Source of the DNA: Paracoccaceae bacterium
Lineage (GTDB): Bacteria > Pseudomonadota > Alphaproteobacteria > Rhodobacterales > Rhodobacteraceae
DNA length: 47,160 bases
Direction of reading: 5' to 3'
Assembly: GCA_020425125.1 (NCBI GenBank)
Contig: JAGQRV010000016.1
Span: forward strand, 10,955 to 58,114
Shown here: piece by piece, positions 18,223 to 37,821 of the stretch
Layout: each line of letters opens with the position of its first letter
Position numbering within the stretch: position 1 is the stretch's first letter
Position numbers and translations under genes: made by a program
Notes under the pieces: model-generated
Database searches by the model: none
Seen by the model: only the letters and a program-made list of their open reading frames with translations
What the model was told of the DNA's origin: nothing

Positions 18223-18348
18223 CTAGTTTATCCGGACATTGGCCGAAGATTGCCGCTGCTCGGACGAGAACCCGGCATGGTCCAGCCCGAAATTGGCAAG
18301 AAAGGCGATCGCGAAGATCGCCAGAAAGGCCAGAAACATGACTCGCAT
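18223..18348 (-). CDS. 41-residue single-span membrane peptide
   Basis: A very short ORF (too short for routine calling) that starts at an ATG at 18348 with GGAGGGTTC immediately upstream and lies 11 bp beyond the WD40-cytochrome stop. After MRV, a hydrophobic stretch (MFLAFLAIFAIAFLANFGL) forms one transmembrane helix, followed by a polar tail (DHAGFSSEQRQSSANVRIN). The strong ribosome site, spacing and composition make it a likely real last gene of the formate dehydrogenase operon, perhaps a small subunit or assembly peptide. No homologue is recognised. Confidence 0.6.
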   Translation of the reverse strand: MRVMFLAFLAIFAIAFLANFGLDHAGFSSEQRQSSANVRIN

Positions 18349-18359
18349 GAACCCTCCGT

Positions 18360-19679
18360 TCACTCGGGCGCGGTTTCGCGCTTGAGAAAGGCGATCAGGT
18401 CGGCGCGATCCTGCGCCGCCACGATCCGCTGCATCGGCATCTTGCTCCCCGGAGTAACATGCTCCGGCCCAAGCGCGAACAGGCGGTCGATGGTGGTTTC
18501 GGACCAGATGATCCCACTTTGGCGCAAGGCAGCCGTGTAGCCATAGCCCGGAAGCGACCCCGCCCGGCGTCCGAAAACCGCATGGAGCGATGGGCCGGCA
18601 TGGCGCGCACCGTCGTCTTCGAGACTGTGGCAGATCGAACATTTGCGCAGGAACTGCCGCTCCCCGTTGGAGACCGTGCCGGGCGCGACATGAAACCTCC
18701 GCTGCGACTCCGCCAGGTGCTTCCGCTCGTCGCCTTCCCCCGGGCCGCCGGAAAGCGGCCAAAGCATAGCCTCGTCCGCGATGCCGCCCGCGATAATGCC
18801 CTGGCTGACGGCAGTGAACGCGAGCGCCCAGATCGGACCATTGAGCGCAGCGTGGAAGTCCCGTTCCACATGCCAGTCTGCGGTCGCAACGATCATGATG
18901 TAGCCGTCGCCATCACCGATCGCGAGACGCGTGCCGTCCGGGCTGCGGGCCAGTGCCAGGATCGGCCGCCGGTCGCCGGAGAGATCGGCAATCGTCGCCC
19001 CTGTCGCCGGATCGAGTATCTCCACGCCCCCATCGGCCGCACCAAAGGCGAGCCATCCTGCAGCCTCGTCGATGGCAAGCACGTTCACTCCGAAGCCGTG
19101 GCTCACGACGCGCCGCGGCGATGCGCCGGCCGCGACGTCATGCTCGAGGATCAGACCATCGTATCCCGCCGAATAAAGTGTCGCCCCTCCCCGCGCCCAG
19201 GCGACGTCGTTGATCGGTCCCTCGTGCCCTGTCAGCACCGCAGTCGGATGTCCGCTCACACCATCCCAAAGGCGGATCGTTCCGTCCCAACTCGCCGTGG
19301 CGATCCGGCTGGCATCGGGCGACGGGCGCACCGAGACGATCTTGCCCGTGTGACCATCGAGCCGCGCCGCCGGCTCATGAGTTTCAAGATCCCAGATGAT
19401 CCCCTCGAAATCGTCACCGACCGAGACGGCGCGGCTTTTCGGCAGGAAGGCAGCCGCGTTGACCGCCGCCCCGTGCCCCTCCAGCCAGACCGGGGACGCG
19501 GTACCTTCGACCTCCCACAGGCCGAGTGAGTTGTCGAAACTGGCCGTCAAAATGCGTCGCCCGTCCGGCGCGACGGCAATATCCATGATCGGCCCGCCAT
19601 GACCGCTGAACGTCCGGAACCCATCCGCAAATGCGGGAGCGGCGAGCGTGAGGGCAACGAAAAGGGCCGCGCGCAGCAT
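18360..19679 (-). CDS. Secreted WD40 seven-bladed propeller fused to cytochrome c
   Basis: A 439-residue periplasmic protein: signal peptide 1-18 (cleaved after AFA), then seven WD40-type repeats (about 20-312; for example PDASRIATASWDGTIRLWD), then a class I cytochrome c domain with heme motif CSICH at 347-351 and distal Met in GSKMPM (Met414). It starts 4 bp after the cytochrome b subunit gene, so it is co-translated with formate dehydrogenase. It probably accepts or relays electrons in the periplasm, with the propeller docking a partner; this is inference. The combination of a complete propeller and one c-type heme is unusual but appears in formate dehydrogenase loci of related bacteria. 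Confidence 0.85.
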   Translation of the reverse strand: MLRAALFVALTLAAPAFADGFRTFSGHGGPIMDIAVAPDGRRILTASFDNSLGLWEVEGTASPVWLEGHGAAVNAAAFLPKSRAVSVGDDFEGIIWDLETHEPAARLDGHTGKIVSVRPSPDASRIATASWDGTIRLWDGVSGHPTAVLTGHEGPINDVAWARGGATLYSAGYDGLILEHDVAAGASPRRVVSHGFGVNVLAIDEAAGWLAFGAADGGVEILDPATGATIADLSGDRRPILALARSPDGTRLAIGDGDGYIMIVATADWHVERDFHAALNGPIWALAFTAVSQGIIAGGIADEAMLWPLSGGPGEGDERKHLAESQRRFHVAPGTVSNGERQFLRKCSICHSLEDDGARHAGPSLHAVFGRRAGSLPGYGYTAALRQSGIIWSETTIDRLFALGPEHVTPGSKMPMQRIVAAQDRADLIAFLKRETAPE

Positions 19680-19683
19680 CGTC

Positions 19684-20934
19684 CTATTCGGCCGGCGACG
19701 CCCGTGCCCGGCGGAAGCCCGGATCTTCCATCTCCACTTCCTCGACCCAGAGACTGTGGTGCTCGCGCGCCCAGTTCAGATCGACCTCGCCGTCGCCCAT
19801 GGCGTCGAAGGCGCCTTCCATCCCGATCGACCCGATATAGATGTGAGCAAGAATGATCGCCATCAGCACGAAGGCCACGATGGCATGCCAGAGCTGGGCG
19901 TACTGCATCTCTTCCTGCGCGGCGAGTTGGTCGGGAAACGGCGCGAGACCGAACCATCCGGGCACGCCGAGCGCATTGAGTTTCGCGAACGTGGCCGCGA
20001 AGAGCGGCATCTCGAAGGGGAACAGAAGCGACAGGCCAGAAACCGAAATCGACGCGCCGAGAAGGATCACCGACCAGAATACGATCTTCTGCCCGGCATT
20101 GAATTTCCGTGCGGGCGGATGCCCGTTGCCGATGATCCCGCCCCCCTTCGCGAACCAGACCAGATCCAGGCGGTTCGGAATGTTGTGCGCCACCCAGAGG
20201 ATGAAGACGAATACCAGGCCGAGCATGAACGCCCAGCTGACATTGTTGTGGATCCACTTGGAATAATGCGCCATCGCGGCATAGGCGGCGCGGGCGCTGT
20301 CATAGGTCTGGGGATCACCGGTGCCGCTCAGAAGGCCGATGGTCTTGCGTCCGAACAGCGTGAACAGACCGGTCAGCGCCAGTAGCACGAACGACCCGGC
20401 AGTCAGCCAATGGAAAAAGCGCTCGACAGCGGTGAACCGCAGGATCCGGATTCCCGACCAGCCGTGACTGATCCGGATCCGGCCGCGGACCAGAAAGAAG
20501 AGCGCCAGAACTGCGATCGTGCCCAGAAGCAGCCACCCGCCATAGGTCGCTAGCGGTCCCCTGCGGAGCTTCAACCAGTCCATTCCGCCGTTCTGGATCA
20601 CCACCCGAGCCTGCGGCCCTCCGGCCGACACCTTGACCTCGGCGGTGCCGAAGCGCAGCGCGTCCCAGACCTCCGCATCCGAAACGCCGCCCAGCGTGCC
20701 CAACTGGGTGTGCGCGGGTAAGGCCCGCTCGGCTTCTGTCGTGAAGTCGCGCGGCTGGCGCGGATCGGCGATGCCGTCCTGGCGCTTCAGGATATCATCG
20801 AGCGTCTGGCGCGGGTGCACCGGCGCCTGTTCGGTGTCATGGCTCAGCGGCGGCAGATCGGCGTCCTGCGCCGCAACGGATCCGGCGCAGATTGCAAGGA
20901 CGAGAAGCAGAACGGCGCGTCGAAGGAGCGTCAT
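19684..20934 (-). CDS. Formate dehydrogenase cytochrome b (gamma) subunit
   Basis: A 416-residue membrane subunit of the FdnI/FdoI type that moves electrons from the Fe-S subunit to quinone. It opens with a signal peptide (LLLVLAICAGSVAAQ), a periplasmic stretch of about 110 residues carrying an LGTLGGVSDAEVWDALRFG motif, then a transmembrane anchor (about 133-152) and the four-helix cytochrome b core with heme-ligand histidines in VERFFHWLTAGSF, HYSKWIHNNVSW and LWHAIVAF. The ATG at 20934 is preferred, since a longer upstream frame would overlap fdhB. It follows the Fe-S subunit by 79 bp. Confidence 0.92.
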   Translation of the reverse strand: MTLLRRAVLLLVLAICAGSVAAQDADLPPLSHDTEQAPVHPRQTLDDILKRQDGIADPRQPRDFTTEAERALPAHTQLGTLGGVSDAEVWDALRFGTAEVKVSAGGPQARVVIQNGGMDWLKLRRGPLATYGGWLLLGTIAVLALFFLVRGRIRISHGWSGIRILRFTAVERFFHWLTAGSFVLLALTGLFTLFGRKTIGLLSGTGDPQTYDSARAAYAAMAHYSKWIHNNVSWAFMLGLVFVFILWVAHNIPNRLDLVWFAKGGGIIGNGHPPARKFNAGQKIVFWSVILLGASISVSGLSLLFPFEMPLFAATFAKLNALGVPGWFGLAPFPDQLAAQEEMQYAQLWHAIVAFVLMAIILAHIYIGSIGMEGAFDAMGDGEVDLNWAREHHSLWVEEVEMEDPGFRRARASPAE

Positions 20935-21013
20935 CGGTTTCTCCCGAGAGATGGTGCGGGGGGCCGATGCGGGCCGCCCCGATACGACCCTTGCCGGATA
21001 AGGCAGGGCCGGC

Positions 21014-21607
21014 TCAGCCGCCTTTCTGTCCATAGGCCGTGCCCCAGCCCCAGGCGCCCGACCCGAAGCCGCGGGCCACGACCCGTTCGCGGTAGATCGC
21101 CGAGACATCGTCGCCATCGCCGGCAAGCAACGCCTTTGTCGAGCACATCTCGGCGCAGATCGGCAGCTTGCCTTCGGCAATCCGGTTCCGGCCGTACTTC
21201 TGGTACTCGGCTTCGGACATGTCGGGTTCCGGCCCGCCATTGCAGAAGGTACACTTGTCCATCTTTCCGCGGCTGCCGAAATTGCCCGCCTGCGGATATT
21301 GCGGCGCACCGAACGGACAGGCGTAGAAGCAGTATCCGCAGCCGATGCACAGGTCCTTCGAATGCAGCACCACGCCGTCTTCGGTCTGGTAGAAGCAGTC
21401 GACGGGGCAGACCGCCATGCAGGGCGCGTCCGAGCAATGCATGCAGGCGACCGAGATCGACCGTTCGCCAGGCTTGCCGTCCTGGATCGTCACGACCCGC
21501 CGCCGGTTGATGCCCCAAGGCACCCCATTCTCGTTCTTGCAGGCGGTGACGCAGGCGTTGCATTCGATGCAGCGTTCGGCGTCACAGAGGAATTTCGCGC
21601 GTGCCAT
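21014..21607 (-). CDS. Formate dehydrogenase iron-sulfur (beta) subunit
   Basis: A 197-residue ferredoxin-like subunit with four [4Fe-4S] cysteine sets: CDAERCIECNACVTACK, CMHCSDAPCMAVCPVDCF, CIGCGYCFYACPFG, and CTFCNG with CAEMCSTKAL. It wires electrons from the molybdenum/tungsten site to the cytochrome b subunit. It lacks the C-terminal membrane anchor of E. coli FdnH, matching the shorter FDH3-type beta subunits. No signal peptide, so it is presumably exported with the catalytic subunit by the Tat system. It lies 15 bp after fdhA. Confidence 0.95.
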   Translation of the reverse strand: MARAKFLCDAERCIECNACVTACKNENGVPWGINRRRVVTIQDGKPGERSISVACMHCSDAPCMAVCPVDCFYQTEDGVVLHSKDLCIGCGYCFYACPFGAPQYPQAGNFGSRGKMDKCTFCNGGPEPDMSEAEYQKYGRNRIAEGKLPICAEMCSTKALLAGDGDDVSAIYRERVVARGFGSGAWGWGTAYGQKGG

Positions 21608-21622
21608 CGTGTCGTTCCTCCC

Positions 21623-24601: not shown

Positions 24602-24642
24602 GTCATCCTCCCTCGCAGGCGCGAAGTTGTCTATCCGGCCGG

Positions 24643-24834
24643 TCAGAACCGGGCGCTGTCCAGATAGGCCTGAACGTGCGGGGTCTTGCGCAGGCCGGTT
24701 CCTTCGGGCTTCGCCTCGGCCGCCTCGCCGGCCCCGCCGGTGACGGTGGCCGCCGCAGCAGCCGGACCGGCAACGGCGGCCAGCTTCAGGAAGCTGCGCC
24801 GTCTGTCGTCCTTCGGCTTTTCGTCGTCGGTCAT
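24643..24834 (-). CDS. Formate dehydrogenase region small Tat-signal protein
   Basis: A 63-residue peptide with a twin-arginine signal (DRRRSFLKLAAVAGPAAAA) and a short charged tail ending KTPHVQAYLDSARF. It matches the formate-dehydrogenase-associated TAT target family (TIGR02811 type) found next to catalytic subunits in many proteobacteria. It lies 41 bp before the catalytic subunit gene and 44 bp after the chaperone gene. The function is not known; it may be a small subunit or export helper. The small size is normal for the family. Confidence 0.85.
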   Translation of the reverse strand: MTDDEKPKDDRRRSFLKLAAVAGPAAAAATVTGGAGEAAEAKPEGTGLRKTPHVQAYLDSARF

Positions 24835-24878
24835 GGAACACTCCCTCCTTGTGTCATGCGCCCGGATCAGCGCCGCGG

Positions 24879-25499
24879 TTACGCCGGAACTTCCCCGGCC
24901 ATCCGGAATGCCTGTACCTCGATTTCCATGAAGGCCTGCCCGACAGCGCCGACCGGCGCATAGAATGCCGCTCCCTTGGCCCCGGCCAGGTCGGCGAAGA
25001 AATGGCCGGCCCAGGGCGCGAGGTGGCGATCGAAGAAATCGCGCTGCACCGCAAGTGGGGCCGGCGATCCGAAGCGGCCAAGGATCAAGCCGGCCATCAT
25101 TTCGCAAAGACTGGCGATGTTGTCTTCGGGCTCGCACACATCCGGTGCGCGCTCGATGCCGAGCGACGCCATGTCCCGGCGCAACTGCGCCAGAGGCCGT
25201 TCATTCAGGAAGCCCGTCAGGTACACGCTGCCGAAAGGCAACAGTTCGCCCCGCCCAAGGCCGATGAACAGACGGTTGAATTCCCGCTCGACCGACCGGC
25301 CGGTGGCCTGCGCGGCACCGCTTGCGAGCGCCGAAATCGCCCGTCCGAGAGGCGTATCGCCGCCGGAGAGCGCCCTCACGCGTGCGATCAGATCGCTCGA
25401 CGGCGGCCGCACCAGAAGCGCAGCCATGAGGTCATAAAGATCGGCACGAAGTCGATCTTCTTCGGTCACCGTCCAGAACTCCTCCCTTCGCGCGGTCAT
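24879..25499 (-). CDS. TorD/DmsD-family molybdoenzyme chaperone
   Basis: A 206-residue all-helical cytoplasmic protein of the TorD/NarJ type that binds Tat signals and guides cofactor insertion before export. Typical features are an N-terminal DLYDLMAALLVRPPS helix, EFNRLFIGLGRGELLPFGSVYLTGFLNERPL (family motif region E-FxxLFxGxxxxxxxPYxSxY), and VCEPEDNIASLCEMMAGLI followed by FFDRHLAPW. It is the first gene of the operon that makes the formate dehydrogenase; its ATG at 25499 lies 58 bp from the promoter-like -10 element upstream. Confidence 0.88.
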   Translation of the reverse strand: MTARREEFWTVTEEDRLRADLYDLMAALLVRPPSSDLIARVRALSGGDTPLGRAISALASGAAQATGRSVEREFNRLFIGLGRGELLPFGSVYLTGFLNERPLAQLRRDMASLGIERAPDVCEPEDNIASLCEMMAGLILGRFGSPAPLAVQRDFFDRHLAPWAGHFFADLAGAKGAAFYAPVGAVGQAFMEIEVQAFRMAGEVPA

Positions 25500-25556
25500 T
25501 CGTCGCCGCGGCGTTGGCCGTGTCCGCAGGCAGACAATGTCCGCGCTGCGACTAAA

Positions 25557-25586
25557 ATATTAGCTGCACAAAAGCTAAGCGTTCAA
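25557..25586 (-). promoter_or_regulatory. Candidate formate dehydrogenase promoter with dyad in the spacer
   Basis: On the minus strand TTGAAC (25586-25581) and TAATAT (25562-25557) are separated by 18 bp, pointing at the chaperone-fdh operon. The perfect inverted repeat TTAGCT-N7-AGCTAA (25560-25578) fills that spacer and enters the -10 box. Such a layout would let a dimeric regulator block or remodel the promoter, as MerR-type activators do. The regulator is not known; the MerR-like HTH protein at 32323-33216 is one candidate. Confidence 0.55.
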
Positions 25587-25618: not shown

Positions 25619-26221
25619 TCAGCCGTCGAACCGAAACCGCATGCGTCGGCGCACCGGATCGGCTGCAAAATCCTGCACTTCCTCGCAGTTCATTCCCAGG
25701 TCCTGAGGCTCTTCGAAATCTCTGCAATCCGACGCAGTCTCCTCGGCCGCATCTGCTGCGTCTTCTTCCGTGACGTCACTGTCAGCGGGTCTCGCGGCCT
25801 CGTCCTGCCTCGTCTCTGCCAGCTTGCGGACGAATCCGGAGCCCACTTCGTAGGCTGTCTTCAGATTCCCCGTCGATCCGCCGCGCCCGACATAGTCGAT
25901 ATCGTAATCGTTGAGCCCGTCGAGATTGGCGAGCAACGGGTTCGACCGCCAGAGGCTGCGCAATGCCCGGCGCCTGAGACGCGCTGGCACTGCGGACCGC
26001 AGGAAAGCGGCGAAATCGTCACCCTTTTCGAGAAGATCGGGATCCTTCAATCCCAGCTCTGCCAGGATTTCGGCATCGTCCCGTTCAGTCTCCTCGGGCT
26101 CGGAATGTATTTCACGTGGGTTCCCCCGTGGTGTCTCAGTTTCATCGCGGGGGTATTCATTGGGGCCGCGCCGCTTGAGGCGCGACCAGCGAGCCGCGAA
26201 ACCTTCGTCCTTTTCGGTCAT
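25619..26221 (-). CDS. DUF3306 protein linked to formate dehydrogenase
   Basis: A 200-residue cytoplasmic, acidic protein with the DUF3306 core: EGFAARWSRLKRR at the N-terminus, a variable acidic stretch, then FAAFLRSAVPARLRRRALRSLWRSNPLLANLDGLNDYDIDY. The C-terminal third is low complexity and acidic with several Cys (DCRDFE, MNCEEV) that could bind metal, which is inference. Its ATG overlaps the stop of the DUF3305 gene (ATGA). The pair lies upstream of the chaperone gene in the same direction; a role in enzyme maturation is suspected from context only. Confidence 0.8.
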   Translation of the reverse strand: MTEKDEGFAARWSRLKRRGPNEYPRDETETPRGNPREIHSEPEETERDDAEILAELGLKDPDLLEKGDDFAAFLRSAVPARLRRRALRSLWRSNPLLANLDGLNDYDIDYVGRGGSTGNLKTAYEVGSGFVRKLAETRQDEAARPADSDVTEEDAADAAEETASDCRDFEEPQDLGMNCEEVQDFAADPVRRRMRFRFDG

Positions 26222-26793
26222 GAGCCAGCCTTCGGGATGGTCCCCGGTGCCCGATAGACATCCGATGCCTGCCGGATCCGCGCGTCGCCGCGGCCGTCTT
26301 CATCCGAGGCATCGACCCGCGGGCCCCGCTTGCGCTTGTAGAACGGTTCCTCGGCGTGGTGCCGGCGGCAGAACTCGCCGACCCATGCCGCAAGTCCGTC
26401 CGGCATCGGTACCCGCTCGACGATATCCTCACCGTTGTCGGCGTAGTCCTGCGCCTCGAAGGCAGATGCAGTCACCAGGCTGACCTCCGGTCGTCCGGTC
26501 TCGGACACCGGCGGCGGCCGCAGGATGACGTAGACAGATGGCGGGCGGCCGTTCAGGGCGACGAGGTAGCCTTCGGTTTCGCTCCGGTGCAGTTCCAGCG
26601 GGACCGTGGCCGCATGGAACTCGGCGCTCTCGCCGTCGCGGCGCAGTTCCGTCCAATGGCCGGGCCCGCCGCCGGGAACGACGGCCGCCACGGTCCAGGA
26701 CCATTTCGCCCACCGCGTCACGCCTGGACTTCGGCGCAGGACAACGCCCAGCGGCAGCGACGCCCGGCGCTCGTCCCTCTCTCTCATGCGCAT
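26218..26793 (-). CDS. DUF3305 protein linked to formate dehydrogenase
   Basis: A 191-residue cytoplasmic protein of the DUF3305 type: LPLGVVLRRSPGVTRWAKWSWTVAAVVPG at the start, then ELHRSETEGYLVALNGRPPSVYVILRP and VSLVTASAFEAQDYADNGEDIVERVPMP and AAWVGEFCRRHHAEEPFYKRKR. It has no signal peptide or membrane helix. The ATG at 26793 is preceded by GGGGAGGACAAG; a longer frame upstream lacks a good ribosome site and enters the divergent promoter. Coupled by 4 bp overlap to DUF3306. Function unknown, but the pair tracks with formate dehydrogenase genes. Confidence 0.82.
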   Translation of the reverse strand: MRMRERDERRASLPLGVVLRRSPGVTRWAKWSWTVAAVVPGGGPGHWTELRRDGESAEFHAATVPLELHRSETEGYLVALNGRPPSVYVILRPPPVSETGRPEVSLVTASAFEAQDYADNGEDIVERVPMPDGLAAWVGEFCRRHHAEEPFYKRKRGPRVDASDEDGRGDARIRQASDVYRAPGTIPKAGS

Positions 26794-26889: not shown

Positions 26890-28884
26890 TTGGCAGCCAG
26901 GCTTTTCCTCTGCGATTGCGGAGGTACTCAGCGGCTTGACGACGCGGCCATCGGAGATGCGACCGGGCTCGACTGCCGCGGCCTGCACACGGCCCTCTGC
27001 ACACGGCAGATCGACAGGCTTGCAGAGGCGCTGGCCGTACCGGACGCCGAAGTGATCGTGGCCTGCCGGCAGGAACGCGAGACATTTGCCGCGCTGGCCG
27101 AAGAATTGGGTCAGGCCCCACCGCTCGCCGTCGACATCCGCGACCGCGCCGGCTGGTCGGACCAGGGACAGGCAGCGGTCCCGAAGATCGCGGCCCTGCT
27201 GGCCGCGGCCCGGGCGGGGCGGACGCCGGCCAAGGCGATCGACGTCGTCTCGACCGGACTTTGCCTTGTCGTCGGCGCATCAGATGTCGTGCTTCCGGCT
27301 GCCGACCAGTTGGCCGGGCTGCTGTCGGTCACCTGCCTTCTGAGCGACATCCCCGACCTGATCCCGGCGCCCGTGCGCAGATTCGACGTCATGTCCGGGC
27401 GGTTGCGCAAGGCTGCCGGCGCCATCAGCGGGTTCCAGGTGACCGTCGACGGGTTGAGGATCGCCGAACCGTCAGGCCGCGGCACACCCGTCTTCGGTCC
27501 GCCCCGCGATGGCGGGACATCCGAATGCGACCTGATTCTCGACCTTTCGGGCAACACGCCGCTGTTTCCGGCGCATCGGAAGCGCGACGGGTATCTGCGC
27601 GCCGATCCGGGCGATCCTCTGGCCGTGCAGCGGGCCATCCTTGCCGCTTCGCATCTGGTCGGAACCTTCGAAAAGACTCTCCATGTCGCGCTCGACGAAA
27701 GTCTGTGCGCCCATTCTCGCGCCCGGCAGACCGGCTGTACCCGCTGCCTCGATGCCTGTCCCACCGGGGCGATCGCACCGGCCGGCGACGCGGTCCGCGT
27801 CGATCCGATGATCTGCGCCGGTTGCGGGGCGTGCTCGGCGCTCTGCCCCTCCGGCGCGGTGAGCTATGACGCACCGCCGGTCGCCGATCTCTTCGCCGAG
27901 ATCCGCCTGATGGCCGCTGCCTATCGTGCGGCCGGCGGTGCTGCGCCCCGGCTTCTGGTTCATGACGACACGCACGGACGCGAGATGATCGCACTCGCCG
28001 CCCGGTTCGGGCGCGGTTTGCCCGCAGATGTGGTCCCGCTGGAACTGCCCGCCCTCGCCGCCTTCGGCCATGCCGAGATGATGGCCGCGCTGGCAACGGG
28101 CTTTGTGGCGGTCGACCTTCTGTTGGCACCCGGCTCCGACCGCGCGACCATCGAGGCAGAGACGGCCTTGGCCAATGCGCTGGCGGCGGGCACGGGGGCG
28201 GGAAGCGGACGGGTGCGGGTGCTGGATGTCGGAACGCCCGATGGCATGTCCGAGAGCCTCTATGCGTCCCGCGCGGCACCACTCGACATCACGCCGATCC
28301 TGCCGCTCGGGCGGCGACGGAGCGTCACCCGCCTCGCGGCCCGAGCGTTGGCCAGAGGCGCCGACCTTCCGCCGGTCCCGCTGCCCGGCGGCGCCCCTTA
28401 TGGCACGGTTCATGTCGATCAGGATGCCTGCACGCTCTGCCTCTCCTGCGCCGGACTCTGCCCGTCGGGCGCGCTCGGCGACAATCCGGACCGGCCCGAA
28501 TTGCGCTTCCAGGAAGATGCCTGCCTGCAATGTGGGCTCTGCGCCACGATCTGCCCGGAAGATGCAATCACCCTGGAGCCGCGGCTCGACCTTTCCGACG
28601 GAGCCCTTTCGCAGCGGATCCTGAAGGAGGAAGAACCCTATGCCTGCATCGAATGCGGCAAGCCCTTCGGCGTGAAATCGACCATCGAGCGGATCGTCGC
28701 GAAGCTCGAAGGTCAGCACGCGATGTTCACCGGGTCCGACAATGCACGGTTGATCCGGATGTGCGACGATTGCAGGGTGCGAGCGCAGTACCATGACTCG
28801 GGCGCGCCGTTCCGCCTCGGGGAACGGCCGCGAGTCCGCACCACGGACGACGATCTGGAGGCGCGCAAGCTTGGCGAAAGCTAG
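26890..28884 (+). CDS. Multi-cluster 4Fe-4S protein of the formate dehydrogenase locus (TTG start)
   Basis: A 664-residue soluble protein with an N-terminal FLCDCGGT sequence, two ferredoxin pairs and a C-terminal zinc-ribbon-like end. One pair is GCTRCLDACPTGAI (first Cys of the usual CxxCxxCxxxCP displaced) plus CAGCGACSALCPSGAV (about residues 280-320); the other is CTLCLSCAGLCPSGAL plus CLQCGLCATICPEDAI (about 515-560). A further CIECGKPFGVKS and MCDDCR pair follows. It probably carries electrons or supports sulfur/cofactor maturation of the dehydrogenase. The TTG at 26890 fits GGGAGGGTTTC just upstream. Its stop shares CTAG with the convergent cytochrome gene. Confidence 0.85.
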   Translation: MAARLFLCDCGGTQRLDDAAIGDATGLDCRGLHTALCTRQIDRLAEALAVPDAEVIVACRQERETFAALAEELGQAPPLAVDIRDRAGWSDQGQAAVPKIAALLAAARAGRTPAKAIDVVSTGLCLVVGASDVVLPAADQLAGLLSVTCLLSDIPDLIPAPVRRFDVMSGRLRKAAGAISGFQVTVDGLRIAEPSGRGTPVFGPPRDGGTSECDLILDLSGNTPLFPAHRKRDGYLRADPGDPLAVQRAILAASHLVGTFEKTLHVALDESLCAHSRARQTGCTRCLDACPTGAIAPAGDAVRVDPMICAGCGACSALCPSGAVSYDAPPVADLFAEIRLMAAAYRAAGGAAPRLLVHDDTHGREMIALAARFGRGLPADVVPLELPALAAFGHAEMMAALATGFVAVDLLLAPGSDRATIEAETALANALAAGTGAGSGRVRVLDVGTPDGMSESLYASRAAPLDITPILPLGRRRSVTRLAARALARGADLPPVPLPGGAPYGTVHVDQDACTLCLSCAGLCPSGALGDNPDRPELRFQEDACLQCGLCATICPEDAITLEPRLDLSDGALSQRILKEEEPYACIECGKPFGVKSTIERIVAKLEGQHAMFTGSDNARLIRMCDDCRVRAQYHDSGAPFRLGERPRVRTTDDDLEARKLGES

Positions 28885-29711
28885 CGCGGCTGGACCCTGG
28901 CGCCCAGATCCTTCGGGGCAATGCGCGCCACATAGGCAAGGATCGCGTCCAGATCCTGCCAGTCGATCACCACGGGCGTGATATGCCGTGGACTGTCAGG
29001 GTCGAGCGGCGCGCTTTGGCCTTCGACCTCGGTGAAGGACGGGTGCGGGTTTTCGGACCAGAATTCCCTGAACCGCTGCTGCCAGTCCGGAAAGCTGCGC
29101 AACGCGGGAAAGGACGGGGCCGAACCGTTGCCGCCGAAGGGATTGCTGGCAGACACCACATGGCAGCGGCCACAATGTATCTTGGCGAGCCGTTCACCCT
29201 CATCGCGGTCGCCGTCAGGGAGAACCGCGGCGACACGCGGCGGATCGCGCGCGGCCGCTACATAGCGCTGCCCGTCCCGTCCAACGAATTGCGCGACCGT
29301 GTTCTGCCCGATCTCGGACAGGAGCCAGTCGAAGAACCGCACGCCGTTTTCCGGGCGCGGCGCATTGGGCGGAACGGCGACAAGATAGCTGTCGCCCGCT
29401 TCTGCATCGTCCGCCCGAAAAGCCACACGGGCCTCGGCGCCGCCCGGAATCGTGGCGATTACGGCGTCCGGTACAAGCACGACGTCGGCCGTGCCATCGA
29501 CCGCCATGCGCGTCACCGCCTCAGCGTCGCCGGCCCGCACAGCGACACGAAGGCCCGTCTTGAGCGCGAAGCGCGGCACCAGGAAGCCAAGGAATCCGGA
29601 GGCTTCGAGCCGCGCGTCGGCGGCCAGCGTCAATGACCGGTCCTCCGCGGGTTGTGCCGCGGCTCCCGCAACCGCAAGGCTTATCAAGGCGGCGCCCAGC
29701 ACCACGCGCAT
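28881..29711 (-). CDS. Periplasmic binding-protein-like domain fused to cytochrome c
   Basis: A 276-residue secreted protein: signal peptide (VVLGAALISLAVAGAAAQ), a TupA/ModA-like solute-binding domain (about 25-165, with a FFDWLLSEIGQNTVAQF segment that parallels IDWLLSDDGQTAIAGY in the nearby TupA), then a cytochrome c domain with CGRCH at 180-184. No methionine occurs after the heme motif, so the distal ligand would have to be His (for example in NPHPSF or RHITPV) or absent. Divergently transcribed from DUF6494 and convergent with the ferredoxin gene. It could link oxyanion sensing to electron flow, which is inference. Confidence 0.78.
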   Translation of the reverse strand: MRVVLGAALISLAVAGAAAQPAEDRSLTLAADARLEASGFLGFLVPRFALKTGLRVAVRAGDAEAVTRMAVDGTADVVLVPDAVIATIPGGAEARVAFRADDAEAGDSYLVAVPPNAPRPENGVRFFDWLLSEIGQNTVAQFVGRDGQRYVAAARDPPRVAAVLPDGDRDEGERLAKIHCGRCHVVSASNPFGGNGSAPSFPALRSFPDWQQRFREFWSENPHPSFTEVEGQSAPLDPDSPRHITPVVIDWQDLDAILAYVARIAPKDLGARVQPR

Positions 29712-29821
29712 TCCGAATCTCCGCTCGTCGGGGCTTCCCTTGCTTCGGGGGGGCCGTTGCTTCAAGAAATGCCAACCGCGCACTGATGACAATATCGGCG
29801 GGCCGAGAGGGAGAACGTGCC

Positions 29822-30034
29822 ATGAGCGACGACGACTTCAACATGTCCATGCGGAAGTTTCTGAAACAGGTGGGTGTCACCTCCCAGCAGGAGATCGAGG
29901 CTGCCGTGCGCGCCGCCCGCGAATCCGGGACGCTTCCCGACGGCGGCCTCGAGGCGCGTATGGTGCTGACGATTGACGGCCTCGGCCTCACGCACGAGGT
30001 CAAGGGACGGATCAAGACCGGAGGGACGGCTTGA
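29822..30034 (+). CDS. DUF6494-type small protein
   Basis: A 70-residue soluble protein: MSDDDFNMSMRKFLKQVGVT, then a helix with QQEIEAAVRAARESG and a strand-rich end LEARMVLTIDGLGLTHEVKG. It fits the DUF6494 family found in formate dehydrogenase neighbourhoods; assignment is from memory of the family, not a search. GAGAGGGAG precedes the ATG. Its TGA overlaps the TTG start of the Mrp gene, so translation is coupled. Role unknown; it may form a complex with Mrp. Confidence 0.75.
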   Translation: MSDDDFNMSMRKFLKQVGVTSQQEIEAAVRAARESGTLPDGGLEARMVLTIDGLGLTHEVKGRIKTGGTA

Positions 30035-31101
30035 CCGTCGACGCCATCACACGCGCGGCCGTTCTGGATGTCCTGAAATCCATCACCAACCCGGCGACGG
30101 GAACCGACCTGGTGGCGTCGGACGTGATCCGCGCGCTGACGGTCGCAGACGGGCGGATCCGCTTCGTGATCGAGGTCCCGCCGGAGGAGGCGGACAGAAT
30201 GGAAGCGGTCCGGTCCAAAGCCGTCGCCGCGTTGGAAGGTCTTGCCGGGGCGGGTAACGTCTCGGCGCTGCTGACCGCTCACACCGAGCGGAAGCCTCCC
30301 GACCTGAAACCGGGCCGCGTGGCGCCACAGGGGCCGCAACCGTTCCCGGGCGTCAAATCAGTCATAGCCATCGGCTCCGGCAAGGGCGGCGTCGGCAAGT
30401 CCACCGTATCCGCCAATCTGGCGGTCGCACTGGCCGCGGCGGGCAAGAAGGTCGGGCTTCTGGACGCCGACGTCTACGGGCCGTCCCAGCCGCGGATGCT
30501 GGGGGTCTCCGGGCGTCCGGCGTCGCCCGACGGCAAGACCATCTTGCCGCTGCGCAATCATGGCGTGACACTGATGTCGATCGGGCTCTTGACCCGCGAG
30601 GACGAAGCGGTCGTGTGGCGCGGGCCGATGCTGATGGGCGCGCTGCAGCAGATGCTGGGCCAGGTCCAGTGGGGCAATCTGGACGTCCTCCTGGTCGATC
30701 TGCCGCCGGGAACCGGCGACGTGCAGTTGACCCTGTCGCAGAAGACCCGCCTTGCCGGCGCAATCGTGGTCTCGACCCCGCAGGACGTCGCGCTCCTCGA
30801 CGCGCGCAAGGCGCTCGACATGTTTGCCAAGACCGGCGTTGCGGTCCTCGGCATGATCGAGAACATGTCGGCCTTCGTCTGCCCCGGCTGCGGACTGGAG
30901 ACGCATGTCTTCGGACATGGCGGGGCGCGCGCCGAAGCAGCGCGGCAGGGGATCCCGCTTCTCGGGGAAATCCCTCTTGATCTCGACATCCGGCTGGCCT
31001 CGGACGGCGGTGCCCCGATTGTCGCCGCAAAGCCCGAAAGCCCGCAGGCTGCAGCGTTCCGGGCCATCGCGCAGCGCCTGATCGACGATGGGCATGTCTG
31101 A
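30031..31101 (+). CDS. Mrp/ApbC-type P-loop ATPase, iron-sulfur carrier
   Basis: A 356-residue protein of the Mrp/NBP35 family that assembles or carries Fe-S clusters. An N-terminal MIP18-like domain (about 1-95) leads to the deviant Walker A GSGKGGVGKS at 115-124, DADVYGPSQPRMLG, the Walker B DLPPGTGDVQLT and the conserved CPGC (Cys284, Cys287) for cluster binding. The TTG at 30031 is preceded by GGAGGGACGGC and overlaps the DUF6494 stop as TTGA. A local copy beside formate dehydrogenase suggests dedicated Fe-S supply for its subunits. Confidence 0.92.
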   Translation: MTVDAITRAAVLDVLKSITNPATGTDLVASDVIRALTVADGRIRFVIEVPPEEADRMEAVRSKAVAALEGLAGAGNVSALLTAHTERKPPDLKPGRVAPQGPQPFPGVKSVIAIGSGKGGVGKSTVSANLAVALAAAGKKVGLLDADVYGPSQPRMLGVSGRPASPDGKTILPLRNHGVTLMSIGLLTREDEAVVWRGPMLMGALQQMLGQVQWGNLDVLLVDLPPGTGDVQLTLSQKTRLAGAIVVSTPQDVALLDARKALDMFAKTGVAVLGMIENMSAFVCPGCGLETHVFGHGGARAEAARQGIPLLGEIPLDLDIRLASDGGAPIVAAKPESPQAAAFRAIAQRLIDDGHV

Positions 31102-31828
31102 CGCCCGACACGCGACACGGACACTCGACCTGCCCCCTCTTCTGCGCGGGCAGGCGATCTCGGGCGATCCGCTTGCCGAAGCCGTCCGCATCGCGCGCAC
31201 CGGAATCGATCCGGGTCTCATCGTCCACCAACTGCGCCCCGAGCGCCTGGCCGCGGCCATCATCCTGTCACCCGAAGCGCCGCTGGCGGACGCGATGGCG
31301 ATGGTCTTCGCTGGCGCCAATGCCTTTGCTGACGCATTCGGCGCACTGGCCCCGGCGGAGATCGCAGCGGAGTTCGACTGGCCGGGCGGATTCCGCGTCA
31401 ATGGCGCGCGCTGCGGCGGTCTGCGAGCAGCGGCCGCCACGCCAGCACCGGAGGTCGAGCCGGATTGGCTGGTGATCGCCATCGACGTGCCCTTCCGTTC
31501 GACCGGGACGCGGGAGCCTGGTCACACGCCCGACGTCACGACCCTTTACGCCGAAGGTTGCGGCAGCCTGACGCCGACGGCCGTACTCGAGTCATGGTCG
31601 CGCCACATGCTGCACTGGATCGACCGATGGCTCGACGACGGCATGGCACGGCTCCACCGGGACTGGTCCGGCCGGGCGGCCTCCCTCGGCCGCGATGTGG
31701 TTTTTGACCTCGCAAGCTCCGCCTGGGCGGGAAGGTTCGTCGGGCTCGATGACCGCGGCGGGATGCTGCTGAAGACGGCGACGGAGACCCGGCTCCTGCC
31801 GCTGACGCTGATGCTGGAGGAGGCCTGA
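31088..31828 (+). CDS. Biotin/lipoate-ligase-like protein (DUF4444 C-terminus), catalytic Lys replaced
   Basis: A 246-residue protein with a BPL/LplA-type N-terminal domain and a C-terminal DUF4444-like part (about 180-246, ending LLPLTLMLEE). In biotin ligases the active segment reads WPNDLLVNGRKxxG; here it is WPGGFRVNGARCGG, so the usual Lys is Arg108 and the adjacent PND Asp is Gly. That suggests loss of normal ligase chemistry. It overlaps Mrp by 14 bp and the next gene by 1 bp. Start could be 31094. A role in formate dehydrogenase maturation is inferred from position. Confidence 0.75.
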   Translation: MGMSDARHATRTLDLPPLLRGQAISGDPLAEAVRIARTGIDPGLIVHQLRPERLAAAIILSPEAPLADAMAMVFAGANAFADAFGALAPAEIAAEFDWPGGFRVNGARCGGLRAAAATPAPEVEPDWLVIAIDVPFRSTGTREPGHTPDVTTLYAEGCGSLTPTAVLESWSRHMLHWIDRWLDDGMARLHRDWSGRAASLGRDVVFDLASSAWAGRFVGLDDRGGMLLKTATETRLLPLTLMLEEA

Positions 31829-32307
31829 TGCCAAAACTTGCCCGCACCATCCGTTTCGACGACAGCGACGCGCGTGTCTACGCCCGGGCGGCAGAAAGCG
31901 GCGAATGGGCGATCCCGGGCGGTTTCGAGTTCTCGAACTGGAGCGAAGGCGATCTGGCCGGCAAGGCGCGGCAATCCTTCGCAAATGGCTGGCTGTCGCT
32001 GGAAGGCTTCGGCCGCGCGACGCTGGTGGCCGTCGCCCAGATCGAAGCGGCAGAAGTTGACGCGCTCACCGATCGGTTGGCGGACCATTTCGTCCACCTC
32101 TACGGAGCACCGGATCGCGCAACCGCCCTGCCCGCAGCCCGTGAAGAAATCGCCTTCATGCAGGATCTCTGCGCGGATCATGATCCAAACGTGATCCTGA
32201 TCGTCCAGCGCGAACTCACAGAGGCGGGCGTACGCGAGAGCTTTCGTGCCATCACACCGGCCGAGGCCGAAATCGGCATCGTCGCCATCCACGGCACACC
32301 CGATTGA
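31828..32307 (+). CDS. DUF6505-type protein
   Basis: A 159-residue soluble protein: LARTIRFDDSDARVYARAAESGEWAIPGGFEFSNWSEGDLAGKARQSFANGWLSL near the start is the typical region, and IVQRELTEAGVRESFRAITPAEAEIGIVAIHG near the end. It fits the DUF6505 family, often next to DUF6494 and Mrp in Rhodobacterales formate dehydrogenase loci (recalled, not searched). Translation starts inside the preceding stop (TGATG). Function unknown; a small binding or chaperone role is possible. Confidence 0.72.
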   Translation: MPKLARTIRFDDSDARVYARAAESGEWAIPGGFEFSNWSEGDLAGKARQSFANGWLSLEGFGRATLVAVAQIEAAEVDALTDRLADHFVHLYGAPDRATALPAAREEIAFMQDLCADHDPNVILIVQRELTEAGVRESFRAITPAEAEIGIVAIHGTPD

Positions 32308-32322
32308 GTGCGCCCTGCCCGT

Positions 32323-33216
32323 TCAGGCGTTCCACATCACCCTGCCCAATTCGCCGATATCGAAGCCGGCAACCGTCGCGGCGTGGTCGGTGAAGCTGGA
32401 ACTCTTGCAGAAGGAGAACAATCTTTGCAGGGGCGGCTCGAACCAGGCACGCCGGTCCACCACCAGATCAAAGCGTTCCTCGACCAGCGGCACGAAGCCA
32501 AGTCCGAAGAGCCGCGCAAAAGACTCGAGCCCGAACGTGCATTCGACCGCCCCCTGCGCCACGGCCATGACCGCGTCGCTTTCAGACGGCGCGGATTCGC
32601 CGAAGAGCGTGTCGCGGGGGCTCAGCCCCGCTTCGGCCAGCAAGTGCTCTAACAGGCTTTGCGTGCCGGTGTCCGATGACCGCGGCGCGACCCGCCGTCC
32701 TGCCAGATCCGCGACGGACCGGATCGCACCCTCGGCTGCTTTCGGGATCACCAGGCCGCGACTGCGCCGCGCCCAGGCGATCAGCACCGCATTCTGATCG
32801 GCGAATGTTTCGGCAACGCGGTTCCGGTTCCAGTCCTTGCCGTTCTCATCCAGAAGGTGCAGCCCAGTCGCCACCCCTTCTCCGTTGCCGAAGCGCCGAA
32901 GACCGTCGAGGCTTCCGTCGAACCGGGTTGCAAGGCCACAGCGGGACTGCCGGATCGCCCATTCGAGAAGCGGGTCGTGGCTGCCGAGAAAGATGTCTGC
33001 GCGGACAGGCGCTTCCGACGCTCGGCCGCCGCTGCTGCCGCCGGCGATCCAGGCGCGAATTTCGCGTTCGGGAAACAGCAGCTTCCCGGTGACCCGCGAT
33101 ACCGGAATCTCGCCCGAGGCCGCGAGGTCATAGACCTTGCGCTCCTTGATCCGCAGCAGCGCGGCAAGCTCGGGGACCGTCAGGAATTCGGGCGAGGCGG
33201 TCTGCGTGTCGGCCAT
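32323..33216 (-). CDS. HTH regulator fused to periplasmic-binding-protein-like sensor domain
   Basis: A 297-residue cytoplasmic protein. Residues ~12-60 form an excisionase/MerR-like winged HTH (LTVPELAALLRIKERKVYDLAASGEIPVSRV), and the rest is a substrate-binding domain like a molybdate/tungstate-binding protein (FLGSHDPLLEWAIRQ, VAGRRVAPRSSDTGTQSLLEHLLAEAGL). It is the last gene of the tupB-tupC-tupA run, 63 bp after tupA. It probably senses tungstate or molybdate and controls this operon or formate dehydrogenase genes; this is inference. Such one-component PBP-fold regulators are known beside Mo/W genes. Confidence 0.85.
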   Translation of the reverse strand: MADTQTASPEFLTVPELAALLRIKERKVYDLAASGEIPVSRVTGKLLFPEREIRAWIAGGSSGGRASEAPVRADIFLGSHDPLLEWAIRQSRCGLATRFDGSLDGLRRFGNGEGVATGLHLLDENGKDWNRNRVAETFADQNAVLIAWARRSRGLVIPKAAEGAIRSVADLAGRRVAPRSSDTGTQSLLEHLLAEAGLSPRDTLFGESAPSESDAVMAVAQGAVECTFGLESFARLFGLGFVPLVEERFDLVVDRRAWFEPPLQRLFSFCKSSSFTDHAATVAGFDIGELGRVMWNA

Positions 33217-33279
33217 GCCGCTGGATGCTCCCTTCGATGTCGTGGCCGCCTCCGCACCGGCGGCCTCCGCATCATCGCA

Positions 33280-34098
33280 TCAACTGGCGTCCGGGAAAAA
33301 GAGTTGTTGTCCGTCCACCCGGTAGCCGGCAATCGCCGTCTGACCGTCGTCCGACAGCAGCCAGTCGATGAAGGCCTGCCCCTCCTCCGTCTTGACCGAC
33401 GGGCATTTCTCCGGATTCACGAGGATCACGCCGTACTGGTTGAAGAGGTTCTTGGCCCCTTCGACCACAATCTCGAAATCGCCCTTGTTCGCAAAGCTGA
33501 TCCAGGTCGCCCGGTCGGTCAGCACATAGGCGCCCATGCCGATGCCGGTATTCAGCGTCGCGCCCATCCCCGACCCGGTCTCGCGGTACCAGCTTCCGGA
33601 CGCGCCCGTCGGGTCGATGCCTGCGCTCTTCCAGAGCGCCTGCTCCTTCTTGTGCGTACCGGAATCGTCGCCGCGCGAGGCAAAGATGGATTTGGACCCG
33701 GCGATCTTCGTCAACGCGGCCTCGGCATCCTTCATGCCCTTGACCCCTGCCGGGTCAGCCGCCGGGCCGACGATGATGAAGTCGTTGTACATCAGATCCG
33801 AACGCTTCACTCCGAAGCCGTCCGCCACGAATTTCTCTTCGGCGGGCGTGGCATGGACGAGAAGCACGTCACCGTCGCAATTCTGGGCATTCTTGATCGC
33901 CTGCCCGGTGCCGACTGCCACGACATTGACCGTGATCCCGGTCTTGTCGTGGAAGATCGGCAGCAGGTAGTCGTAGAGCCCGGAATTCGCCGTCGATGTG
34001 GTCGACTGGACGAGAATGGACCTGTCCTGAGCCGCTGCCGGACCAGGCCCCGTTGCGAGTATTGCCGAGACGGCAATCGCATAGGCCACGAGTTTCAC
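33280..34098 (-). CDS. tupA: Tungstate ABC transporter substrate-binding protein
   Basis: A 272-residue periplasmic binding protein: signal peptide (MKLVAYAIAVSAILATGP, cleavage near AAAQ), then QSTTSTANSGLYDYLLP, the TTST motif of TupA that contacts the oxyanion, DVLLVHATPAEEKF, NDFIIVGPAADPAGV and GDDSGTHKKEQALW. TupA homologues prefer tungstate over molybdate. A GTG start at 34098 is preceded by GGAGGTTAGCAA. It follows tupC by 28 bp. Adjacent formate dehydrogenase genes fit a tungsten supply role. Confidence 0.9.
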   Translation of the reverse strand: MKLVAYAIAVSAILATGPGPAAAQDRSILVQSTTSTANSGLYDYLLPIFHDKTGITVNVVAVGTGQAIKNAQNCDGDVLLVHATPAEEKFVADGFGVKRSDLMYNDFIIVGPAADPAGVKGMKDAEAALTKIAGSKSIFASRGDDSGTHKKEQALWKSAGIDPTGASGSWYRETGSGMGATLNTGIGMGAYVLTDRATWISFANKGDFEIVVEGAKNLFNQYGVILVNPEKCPSVKTEEGQAFIDWLLSDDGQTAIAGYRVDGQQLFFPDAS

Positions 34099-34126
34099 TT
34101 GCTAACCTCCCTGACAGTTTTGTTTT

Positions 34127-34897
34127 TCAGAGAACGAACCGGCCGTCGAGGAACGCGCGGGCCCGTTCGGATTGGGGTGCAGAAAAGAAGCTGTCGGCGA
34201 ATCCCATCTCGACCACCTGACCGTGGCTCATGAAGACCACGTCGTCGGCAAGGCGGCGCGCCTGACCGACATCATGGGTCACCAGGATCACCCGGACACC
34301 CCGCGCAGCGACCAGCGCGATGATCTGTTCGATCCGGAGACTGGAAGCCGGATCGAGACTCGCCGTCGGTTCATCCAGGAGCAGAACGCAGGGATCCGTT
34401 GCCAATGCGCGTGCCAGAGCGAGCCTCTGCTGCTCGCCCCCGGAGAGCAGCCGAGCAGGCTGGTCGGCCCGATTCGCCAGGTCGACCGTCTCCAGAAGCT
34501 CGTTGCGGCGGTCTGTACGGTCTTTCACGCCACGTGCGGCAAGAACGAAATCGACGTTCGCCGCAACTGTCCGCCGCAACAGCGCGGGCTTCTGGAACAC
34601 CAGCGCGATGTTACGGCGCGTCTCTTCGTTCAGTGATCTGCCGCCCCAGGTGACCGCTCCGGACGTCGGCGCGGCCAGGCCATGAACCACGCGCAGAAGG
34701 AGGCTCTTGCCGGCACCGTTCGGCCCCATCAGAACGGTAATGCCGCTGCGACCGAGCGTCAGGTTGATCCCGGACAGCAGTGCCCGGCCGCCCGCCAGGT
34801 ACCAGAGATCGTTCACTGCCAGACTACATCGCTCCGCGCCCCCGGCCCGAAGCGGCGGCCAGCTGGCGCCCGCCATATCGCAATTCCCGTCATGCAT
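34127..34897 (-). CDS. tupC: Tungstate ABC transporter ATP-binding protein
   Basis: A 256-residue ABC ATPase with Walker A GPNGAGKS, Q-loop LVFQKPALLRRTV, signature LSGGEQQRLALARAL, Walker B VLLLDEPTASLD and switch His VILVTHDVG. The N-terminal ~25 residues are not conserved, so the Met at 34876 may be the real start; the ATG at 34897 overlaps tupB by 8 bp. It powers the TupB permease for tungstate uptake. Confidence 0.9.
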   Translation of the reverse strand: MHDGNCDMAGASWPPLRAGGAERCSLAVNDLWYLAGGRALLSGINLTLGRSGITVLMGPNGAGKSLLLRVVHGLAAPTSGAVTWGGRSLNEETRRNIALVFQKPALLRRTVAANVDFVLAARGVKDRTDRRNELLETVDLANRADQPARLLSGGEQQRLALARALATDPCVLLLDEPTASLDPASSLRIEQIIALVAARGVRVILVTHDVGQARRLADDVVFMSHGQVVEMGFADSFFSAPQSERARAFLDGRFVL

Positions 34898-35597
34898 AGG
34901 CAGAGCGAAGCGCGGTGCATCGGATGTAGTAGACGAGACCGTTCACGAACAGCGCGATCGCCATCAGGATCGTGCCGAGCGCAAGCGCAAGCGCCAGATC
35001 CCCCTTCGAGGTCTCAAGCGCGATCGCCGTCGTCATCACACGCGTCAGATGGTCGATGTTGCCGCCGACGATGATGACCGCGCCAACCTCGGCCACGGCG
35101 CGACCGAACCCGGCTAGACCGGCCGTCAGCACCGAGAACCGGCCGTCCCAGATCAGCGCCGCGACGACATTGCGATGCGGAAGGCAGAGCGAGCGGAAAT
35201 ACTCGTCATATTCCACGTGCAGGTCTTCGAGGATCTGCCGCGACAGCGCCGCAACGATCGGCGTGACAAGAATCGTCTGCGCAATGATCATCGCGGTCGG
35301 CGTGTAAAGCAGCCCGAGAAAGCCAAGCGGGCCGGACCGGGAAAGAGCCAGATACACGATCAGACCGATGACGACCGGCGGCAGCCCCATCAGTGCATTG
35401 ACCACCGCGATCACCGCACCGCGCCCCGCAAACCGCGTGGTGGCGAGGACAGCCCCCAATGTGACTCCGATGATGCAAGAAAGGGCAGTCGCAGTGAGGC
35501 TGACCAGCAGGGAGAGCGAAACGATCTCGGCAAGATTCCGGTCTGCCGATACAATCAGCGACAGCGCCAGCTGGATCGCACCCCCCAAATCCTGCAT
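34890..35597 (-). CDS. tupB: Tungstate ABC transporter permease
   Basis: A 235-residue integral membrane permease with about five transmembrane helices and the ATPase-coupling segment LSLPHRN-type EAA loop (FRSLCLPHRNVVAALIWDGRFSVLTAGLAGFGRAVAEVGAVIIVGG). The GGNIDHLTRVMTTAIALETSKGD end is characteristic of TupB. The ATG at 35597 has GGAGGAAAGC upstream, the best ribosome site of the operon. First gene of tupB-tupC-tupA-regulator; a dyad-containing region lies just upstream. Confidence 0.92.
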   Translation of the reverse strand: MQDLGGAIQLALSLIVSADRNLAEIVSLSLLVSLTATALSCIIGVTLGAVLATTRFAGRGAVIAVVNALMGLPPVVIGLIVYLALSRSGPLGFLGLLYTPTAMIIAQTILVTPIVAALSRQILEDLHVEYDEYFRSLCLPHRNVVAALIWDGRFSVLTAGLAGFGRAVAEVGAVIIVGGNIDHLTRVMTTAIALETSKGDLALALALGTILMAIALFVNGLVYYIRCTALRSAYA

Positions 35598-37805: not shown

Positions 37806-37821
37806 GGATCCATCCCGGGAG

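Follow-up and report, generated by a model that had tools for sequence, protein, structure and literature searches.

Several described formate dehydrogenase systems, cited throughout this text from excerpts of their sources, resemble the locus considered here. Structure 9VAP is the Shewanella oneidensis enzyme SoFdhAB, which has a Cys-W site and is oxygen tolerant, with the oxygen protection of SoFdhA tied to Y776 and T927 and its tunnel exit to H653 and V666 (2026 review, PMC13397495). The FDH3 enzyme of Methylorubrum extorquens AM1 is cytochrome-linked and NAD-independent (PMC6520949), and MoeA1, MobB, MobA, and FdhD of M. extorquens act in tungsten-cofactor assembly for another enzyme, FDH1 (PMC13197769). 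Genes for TorD, a TAT protein, DUF3305, DUF3306, and ferredoxin-type proteins have already been noted beside formate dehydrogenase (Bay 2015, PMC4464133). Here we analyzed a formate dehydrogenase island at positions 18223 to 35597 of a 47,160-nucleotide stretch (hereafter, the window) of contig JAGQRV010000016.1 from a Paracoccaceae bacterium. That its accessory genes belong with the FDH3 enzyme is well supported: the helper genes, several of unknown function, are mostly kept in related genomes only when FDH3 is kept. We consider it probable that the island as a whole encodes a respiratory formate dehydrogenase of FDH3 type together with genes of its own for biogenesis and electron exit.

The enzyme and the genes around it

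The beta subunit, FdhB, scores 340.1 bits with the NCBIfam profile NF038355 (FDH3_beta), 100 bits above the cutoff of 240, and the gamma subunit, FdhC, scores 135.2 bits with TIGR01583 (cutoff 115.85); these profiles mark the island as an alphaproteobacterial locus for a formate dehydrogenase of FDH3 type. The catalytic subunit, FdhA, has 992 amino acids, three molybdopterin-oxidoreductase Pfam domains, and an active-site cysteine at residue 197 within the motif RICHS. Compared with solved structures, it scored 1387.7 bits against 9vap_A and 321.9 against the next chain, aligning over nearly its whole length and placing Cys197 on the same motif of 9vap_A. All four SoFdhA residues named above are identical in the aligned FdhA of the window (Y776 as Y819, T927 as T970, H653 as H663, and V666 as V676). 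Because of this homology to 9VAP and the four identical residues, FdhA is likely a tungsten-dependent, oxygen-tolerant enzyme.

An earlier note, made from the DNA alone, had listed the three core subunits and a series of accessory genes; all of the genes that it named lie within the island, each with profile support. Both of its cytochrome c fusions were also recovered, one joining WD40 repeats and the other a solute-binding-protein lobe to a CxxCH motif. The Pfam matches of the TorD-type chaperone, DUF3306, DUF3305, DUF6494, DUF6505, Mrp, and the ligase-like protein each exceed the respective family cutoff. The features are as follows.

18223..18348, minus strand: open reading frame (ORF) of 41 amino acids with a single membrane span, behind the WD40-cytochrome gene; GGAGG upstream, compared by tblastn
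18360..19679, minus strand: fusion of a WD40 beta-propeller and a mono-haem cytochrome c, CxxCH at residue 347; PF00400, PF00034
19684..20934, minus strand: FdhC, cytochrome b561-type gamma subunit carrying a signal-like leader followed by an N-terminal extension; TIGR01583
21014..21607, minus strand: FdhB, FDH3-type beta subunit with 4Fe-4S motifs; NF038355
21623..24601, minus strand: FdhA, catalytic subunit with twin-arginine leader and predicted metal ligand Cys197 (RICHS); PF04879, PF00384, PF01568
24643..24834, minus strand: small protein of formate_TAT type with a twin-arginine motif; TIGR02811 39.2 bits, below the cutoff of 48.45
24879..25499, minus strand: TorD/DmsD-type chaperone; PF02613 111.7 bits
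25619..26221, minus strand: DUF3306; PF11748 above cutoff
26218..26793, minus strand: DUF3305, start inferred; PF11749 138.9 bits
26890..28884, plus strand: multi-cluster 4Fe-4S protein (ferredoxin), TTG start; several Fer4 matches, three CxxCxxC motifs
28881..29711, minus strand: single TupA-derived lobe joined to a mono-haem cytochrome c, CxxCH at residue 180
29822..30034, plus strand: DUF6494; PF20104 107 bits
30031..31101, plus strand: Mrp/ApbC-type Fe-S carrier ATPase with CPGC; PF10609 333 bits (within the family), NF008669 326.9 bits, below the cutoff of 348
31088..31828, plus strand: biotin/lipoate-ligase-like protein, read below as a pseudo-enzyme, orthologue of PDB 3bfm; PF16917 211.9 bits
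31828..32307, plus strand: DUF6505; PF20115 241.6 bits
32323..33216, minus strand: TaoR-like regulator, HTH_17 and PBP_like; PF12728, PF12727
33280..34098, minus strand: TupA-like tungstate-binding protein; PF12849 above cutoff, NF041772 below
34127..34897, minus strand: TupC-like ATP-binding cassette (ABC) ATPase; PF00005 above cutoff, NF041774 below
34890..35597, minus strand: TupB-like permease; NF038017 246.9 bits (cutoff 100), NF041773 below cutoff

Co-occurrence and linkage of the accessory genes

Gene content was compared in two samples. The class sample comprised 172 genomes spread evenly over the class, 24 with an FDH3 beta subunit above the NF038355 cutoff (one of them, G001, counted on the basis of two fragments) and 148 without; the family sample comprised 120 genera of the window's family, 64 with FDH3 beta and 56 without an FDH3 match. 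The earlier claim that several unknown genes are tied to the enzyme was borne out by co-occurrence in both. DUF3306 was present in 24 of the 24 FDH3 genomes of the class sample and 3 of the 148 others, the ligase-like protein in 16 and 2, and DUF6505 in 14 and 2. DUF6352, a family missing from the genome of the window and from G022, G154, G096, and G075, was found in 19 and 3, and one or the other of DUF6505 and DUF6352 in 23 and 4. Among the 120 family genomes, FDH3 was present in 64, DUF6505 in 65, both in 63, and neither in 54, an agreement in 117, so that 54 of the 56 genomes without an FDH3 match also lacked DUF6505. As to the disagreements, a contig of G239 ends inside FdhA and so holds part of the locus; in G264, DUF6352 occurs instead of DUF6505, and the ligase-like protein is present; and G234 holds a truncated remnant close to the end of a contig, where a truncated Mrp gene and DUF6505 stand by tupA. 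DUF6505 matches with an internal stop were seen in four family genomes, G233, G239, G249, and G286.

Nor does DUF6505 lie mostly away from formate dehydrogenase, the arrangement that the earlier note had named as speaking against its reading. A scan gave at least 539 DUF6505 loci; the 80 best were retained, and 61 of these had complete 20-kb neighbourhoods, of which 58 hold FdhA, TorD, DUF3305, DUF3306, and ferredoxin, and all 61 hold Mrp and the ligase-like protein. The best 80 are close relatives, all titled Rhodobacteraceae, Rhodobacteraceae genera, or alphaproteobacterial bins, and their linkage reads as stable linkage more than as many independent events.

An alternative is that DUF6494, Mrp, the ligase-like protein, and DUF6505 serve general Fe-S or cofactor metabolism and are located here through shared neighbourhood ancestry, not for FDH3. 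The operon indeed stands without an adjoining formate dehydrogenase in the remaining 3 of the 61 complete neighbourhoods, G135 carries the ligase-like protein and DUF6505 on a different contig from FDH3, and DUF6494 occurs in 13 of the 148 class-sample genomes without FDH3. However, those three genomes and G135 all have FDH3 elsewhere, and DUF6505 is missing together with FDH3 in nearly all of the family genomes counted above, so we regard a general role of these genes as quite improbable.

The linkage of the accessory genes with FDH3 is nevertheless not strict, and several observations weigh against our interpretation. DUF6494, present in 18 of the 24 FDH3 genomes, is not specific to FDH3, because it is found in the 13 genomes just mentioned. 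Among 25 FDH3 loci at the class level, on which the counts out of 25 below are based and some of which are truncated by contig ends, Mrp was near FDH3 in 6. DUF6505 is missing in 10 of the 24 FDH3 genomes, the ligase-like protein in 8, and G075 lacks DUF6505, the ligase-like protein, and DUF6352, so that none of these three is required everywhere. Co-occurrence in the class sample was assessed by Fisher tests, whose values overstate independence since genomes share ancestry. The DUF3306-bearing genomes without FDH3 were G071 (82% complete), G127 (74%), and G125 (98%), and G125 makes a case against strict linkage to FDH3: it has no FDH3 beta above the cutoff, yet DUF3305, DUF3306, and the ferredoxin gene are present.

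In G125, the genes for DUF3306, DUF3305, MobA- and FdhD-type proteins, and the ferredoxin stand together beside a long ORF, perhaps of another type of formate dehydrogenase. DUF6352 stands among the genes for the ligase-like protein, DUF6505, and DUF6494 in G079, G107, and other FDH3 loci. A one-span membrane protein of ~95 amino acids recurs near DUF6352 in four relatives (loci L008, L040, L048, and L050), and the single copy that was scanned had no Pfam match at E 0.001. G159 has a pair of FDH3 loci; accessory genes accompany one of them, and the other shows FdhA, FdhB, and FdhC but no further gene of the set.

The ligase-like protein and DUF6505

The ligase-like protein falls within the fold family PF16917 (BPL_LplA_LipB_2), far above its cutoff of 27 bits, and matches 3bfm with an E of 5e-61. 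A glycine/arginine loop, the motif KWPND, and a catalytic lysine, which we take to hold the adenylate and carry out catalysis in such enzymes, are absent from all 18 island-type copies in the alignment. Other PF16917 copies from 20 FDH3 genomes, taken as housekeeping ligases, served for comparison; all 20 keep the loop, KWPND, and the following lysine, and the loop reads exactly GRGRxGR in 17. Because all three catalytic motifs are lost in 18 of 18 copies, the island protein is, as judged from this alignment, a pseudo-ligase, and it is probably a binding protein. Counting every PF16917 match as the island protein was rejected, as the family also holds housekeeping-type ligases and 111 of the 172 class-sample genomes match it; we counted matches above 100 bits (19 genomes) and removed the housekeeping-type copy of G087, leaving 18 genomes, namely 16 with FDH3 and the incomplete genomes G071 and G127.

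DUF6505 has a confident predicted model (predicted local distance difference test, pLDDT, 90.7), which comparison with solved folds did not assign to any of them. Ten columns are invariant across 16 sequences, and because none of them holds Cys or His, the alignment speaks for a structural or binding role and disfavours a metal site or thiol chemistry.

A cytochrome c with a TupA-derived lobe

The fusion encoded at 28881..29711 scores below the Pfam cutoffs in both of its parts (lobe 22.2 bits against 25, cytochrome 15.8 against 21.3), and its identity was settled by alignment, profile, and predicted model. Its TupA-derived part spans ~136 residues compared with ~249 in TupA and has one lobe instead of two. 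The stretches STTST and SRGDDSGT, which we take to be the tungstate-binding stretches of TupA, are also absent. With both the binding motif and the second lobe missing, the lobe was rejected as a tungstate binder. In 53 aligned sequences, chosen from 95 usable loci, the C, R, C, and H of CGRCH are invariant, as fits a class I cytochrome c with its CxxCH, and so are the lobe residues G20, P27, R28, F29, K32, and W110. Ten of the 13 ten-residue blocks of the predicted lobe model have a pLDDT of at least 90.

Matches to this protein at E 0.001 were found in 54 of the 120 family genomes; 50 were counted, after G188, G201, G257, and G263 were dropped for E values over 1e-4, their weak matches probably being ordinary binding proteins. 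Of the 50, 49 fall among the 64 FDH3 genera and 1 among the 56 others, and this one is G239, with the contig that ends inside FdhA. Of the 50, the presence of the lobe was checked in the 30 whose loci were fetched, 29 of which also built the profile. In these 30 loci, one of which is the window, the fusion adjoins Mrp (29 loci), ferredoxin (28), and DUF6494 (25), all inside stretches under 4 kb. For this protein the 25-locus count of 8 loci was not used, the matches of G105 and G079 there being to TupA itself.

The lobe could be a leftover, a plain FDH-linked cytochrome c gene having fused to a decaying tupA and the lobe having no role. FDH3 loci of G096, G107, and G001 do hold a plain cytochrome c without the lobe, and lobe length varies; set against this are the invariant lobe residues and the well-predicted lobe fold, which would be unexpected under decay, and the presence of the lobe in all 30 fetched loci. 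We therefore think a mere leftover unlikely, while noting a further point against the wider interpretation: only members of the window's family showed the lobe joined to the cytochrome, which in other families stands alone.

Metal supply and cofactor assembly

The products of the three transport genes match tungstate-transport families, and none reaches its NCBIfam equivalog cutoff (TupA 237 of 400 bits, TupB 152 of 320, and TupC 125.8 of 400). The TupB cutoff was reached in 0 of the 172 class-sample genomes, itself an adverse result for the tungstate assignment; because no genome reaches it, the equivalog cutoffs may be narrow. The island TupA keeps both STTST and SRGDDSGT, and a TupB homologue, counted at E up to 1e-25, was present in 23 of the 24 FDH3 genomes versus 33 of the 148 others. 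The regulator has HTH_17 and PBP_like domains and is TaoR-like by these domains, the same architecture having been described for TaoR (PMC11980592). Physical proximity is looser and also counts against our interpretation: TupABC was near FDH3 in 11 of the 25 loci, or 12 when the two contigs that share the G001 locus are put together, and the TaoR-like regulator was near it in 4.

To our knowledge, the choice between molybdenum and tungsten in bis-molybdopterin guanine dinucleotide (bis-MGD) enzymes cannot be read from sequence. The same locus might thus serve an enzyme that uses molybdenum in the cell, with the nearby ABC transporter handling molybdate or both metals, as the subthreshold Tup scores and the adjoining of Tup genes and FDH3 in fewer than half of the loci would allow; the excerpt of PMC6520949 likewise states no metal for M. 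extorquens Fdh3. However, the nearest solved enzyme is a Cys-W enzyme, the presumed binding stretches of TupA are retained, and the TupB homologue follows FDH3 in the counts just given. Molybdenum use appears rather unlikely to us on balance, and we infer tungsten use by the enzyme.

The island is not self-contained, as the earlier note had called it: FdhD, MobA, MobB, and MoeA genes stand in a row on another contig of the same genome. In other genomes FdhD, MobA, or MoeA genes lie inside or near the FDH3 locus; for these, the FdhD and MobA families were checked on one representative each, and MoeA was named from its sequence. Family NF011058 joins MobA to DUF3305, and the island DUF3305 matches the latter part of it. 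In G051, G159, and G125, the DUF3305 gene has genes of MobA and FdhD type as neighbours; because of this fusion family and this adjacency, DUF3305 may handle the finished cofactor.

Proposed working of the locus

Gene content, conservation, linkage, lost motifs, and predicted folds were observed, and from them we infer every functional step of the following scheme. TupABC, controlled by the TaoR-like regulator, would import tungstate, and MoeA, MobB, MobA, and FdhD, encoded off the island, would build and sulfurate W-bis-MGD. DUF3305 and DUF3306 would load the cofactor next to MobA and FdhD, TorD would guard the FdhA twin-arginine translocation precursor, and Mrp would supply Fe-S clusters. 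The pseudo-ligase and DUF6505, which in other lineages has DUF6352 as a partner or a substitute, may act in this cytosolic pathway as binding proteins without catalytic activity. Once the enzyme has been exported, electrons from formate would enter at FdhA and reach quinone by way of the clusters of FdhB and the haem b of FdhC. The pair of periplasmic c-type cytochromes may form a second electron exit, and the TupA lobe could be a docking domain of its cytochrome instead of a tungstate binder. A role of the unknown genes in maturation and electron exit is plausible.

More tentatively, and with rather less confidence than an even chance would imply, we suggest that a hitherto undescribed assembly apparatus is dedicated to FDH3, one in which a dead biotin/lipoate-ligase fold (the 3bfm family), DUF6505 (possibly a new fold, accompanied or substituted by DUF6352 in other lineages), Mrp, and DUF3305/DUF3306 load cofactor or clusters into the enzyme. 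In the same reading, an electron-carrying cytochrome c has acquired its docking domain from half of a tungstate-binding protein.

Air-tolerant tungsten formate dehydrogenases are wanted for making formate from CO2. Stated barriers are the building and insertion of the metal cofactor, as said of FDH1 (PMC13197769), and the lack of a production host (PMC13396061). If the unknown genes are FDH3 assembly factors, they make a short list of candidates to test, with testable roles named for DUF6505, DUF6352, DUF3305, and DUF3306 and a setting offered for 3bfm, whose crystal structure was deposited without a function.

Borders of the island and neighbouring genes

The left end at 18223 is that of the 41-codon membrane ORF, a correction to the earlier reading; tblastn matches to this ORF stood beside FDH3 only in the window, G022, and G154 among the 25 loci, the latter two being family members. 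Over the same loci, the WD40-cytochrome was near FDH3 in 16, FdhC in 24, TorD in 22, and ferredoxin in 18. An aminotransferase gene (16786-18105; at 150 bits) and a hybrid histidine kinase gene (35943-37835; at 200 bits) were rejected as island members, since at these thresholds neither lies near FDH3 in any of the 25 loci except that of the window. Among the DUF6505 loci listed, the closest named DUF6505 was that of Rhodovulum robiginosum (81% identical), whose 20-kb neighbourhood holds the same genes from FdhA through the tup genes, with the tup genes inverted.

Beyond TupB, beside the histidine kinase gene, 37822-38400 encodes a small protein with an oxidoreductase molybdopterin-binding domain (PF00174, E 1e-5). 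Farther right are a folE2-type GTP cyclohydrolase gene (40045-41148; PF02649) and a tRNA-Ser(CGA) gene (41339-41428).

Comparison with described systems

In name, the window's enzyme is linked to the M. extorquens AM1 enzyme, since its NCBIfam family carries the name FDH3; we take that family to be named after the AM1 enzyme, which presumably has three subunits. The likeness to SoFdhAB lies in the near full-length alignment of FdhA, the Cys ligand, and the four identical tunnel and oxygen-protection residues. It differs in that the Shewanella enzyme was produced as AB only, and the excerpted description does not mention DUF6505, the pseudo-ligase, or the TupA-lobe cytochrome (PMC13397495). The M. 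extorquens FDH1 pathway is alike in that MoeA, MobB, MobA, and FdhD also occur in the window's genome, as one cluster off the island, and differs in that there moeA1-mobB stand with tupBCA and the enzyme served is the NAD-dependent FDH1 (PMC13197769).

The excerpted account of the TorD/DmsD-fdhGHI operons of Bay 2015 names neither DUF6494, DUF6505, the pseudo-ligase, and the cytochrome fusions of the island nor DUF6352 of other FDH3 loci (PMC4464133). Among the matches listed from the open-access literature we found no link of DUF6505, DUF6352, DUF6494, or 3bfm to the FDH3 enzyme, and no prior link for the TupA-lobe cytochrome, which was looked for there only under 'TupA-like'. Relative to TupA of Desulfovibrio alaskensis (5my5), the island fusion lacks the second lobe and the binding motif and has a cytochrome c added. 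Finally, the entry for PDB 3bfm calls the protein biotin protein ligase-like and names no function, whereas the island family to which it is orthologous is tied to FDH3 by co-occurrence.

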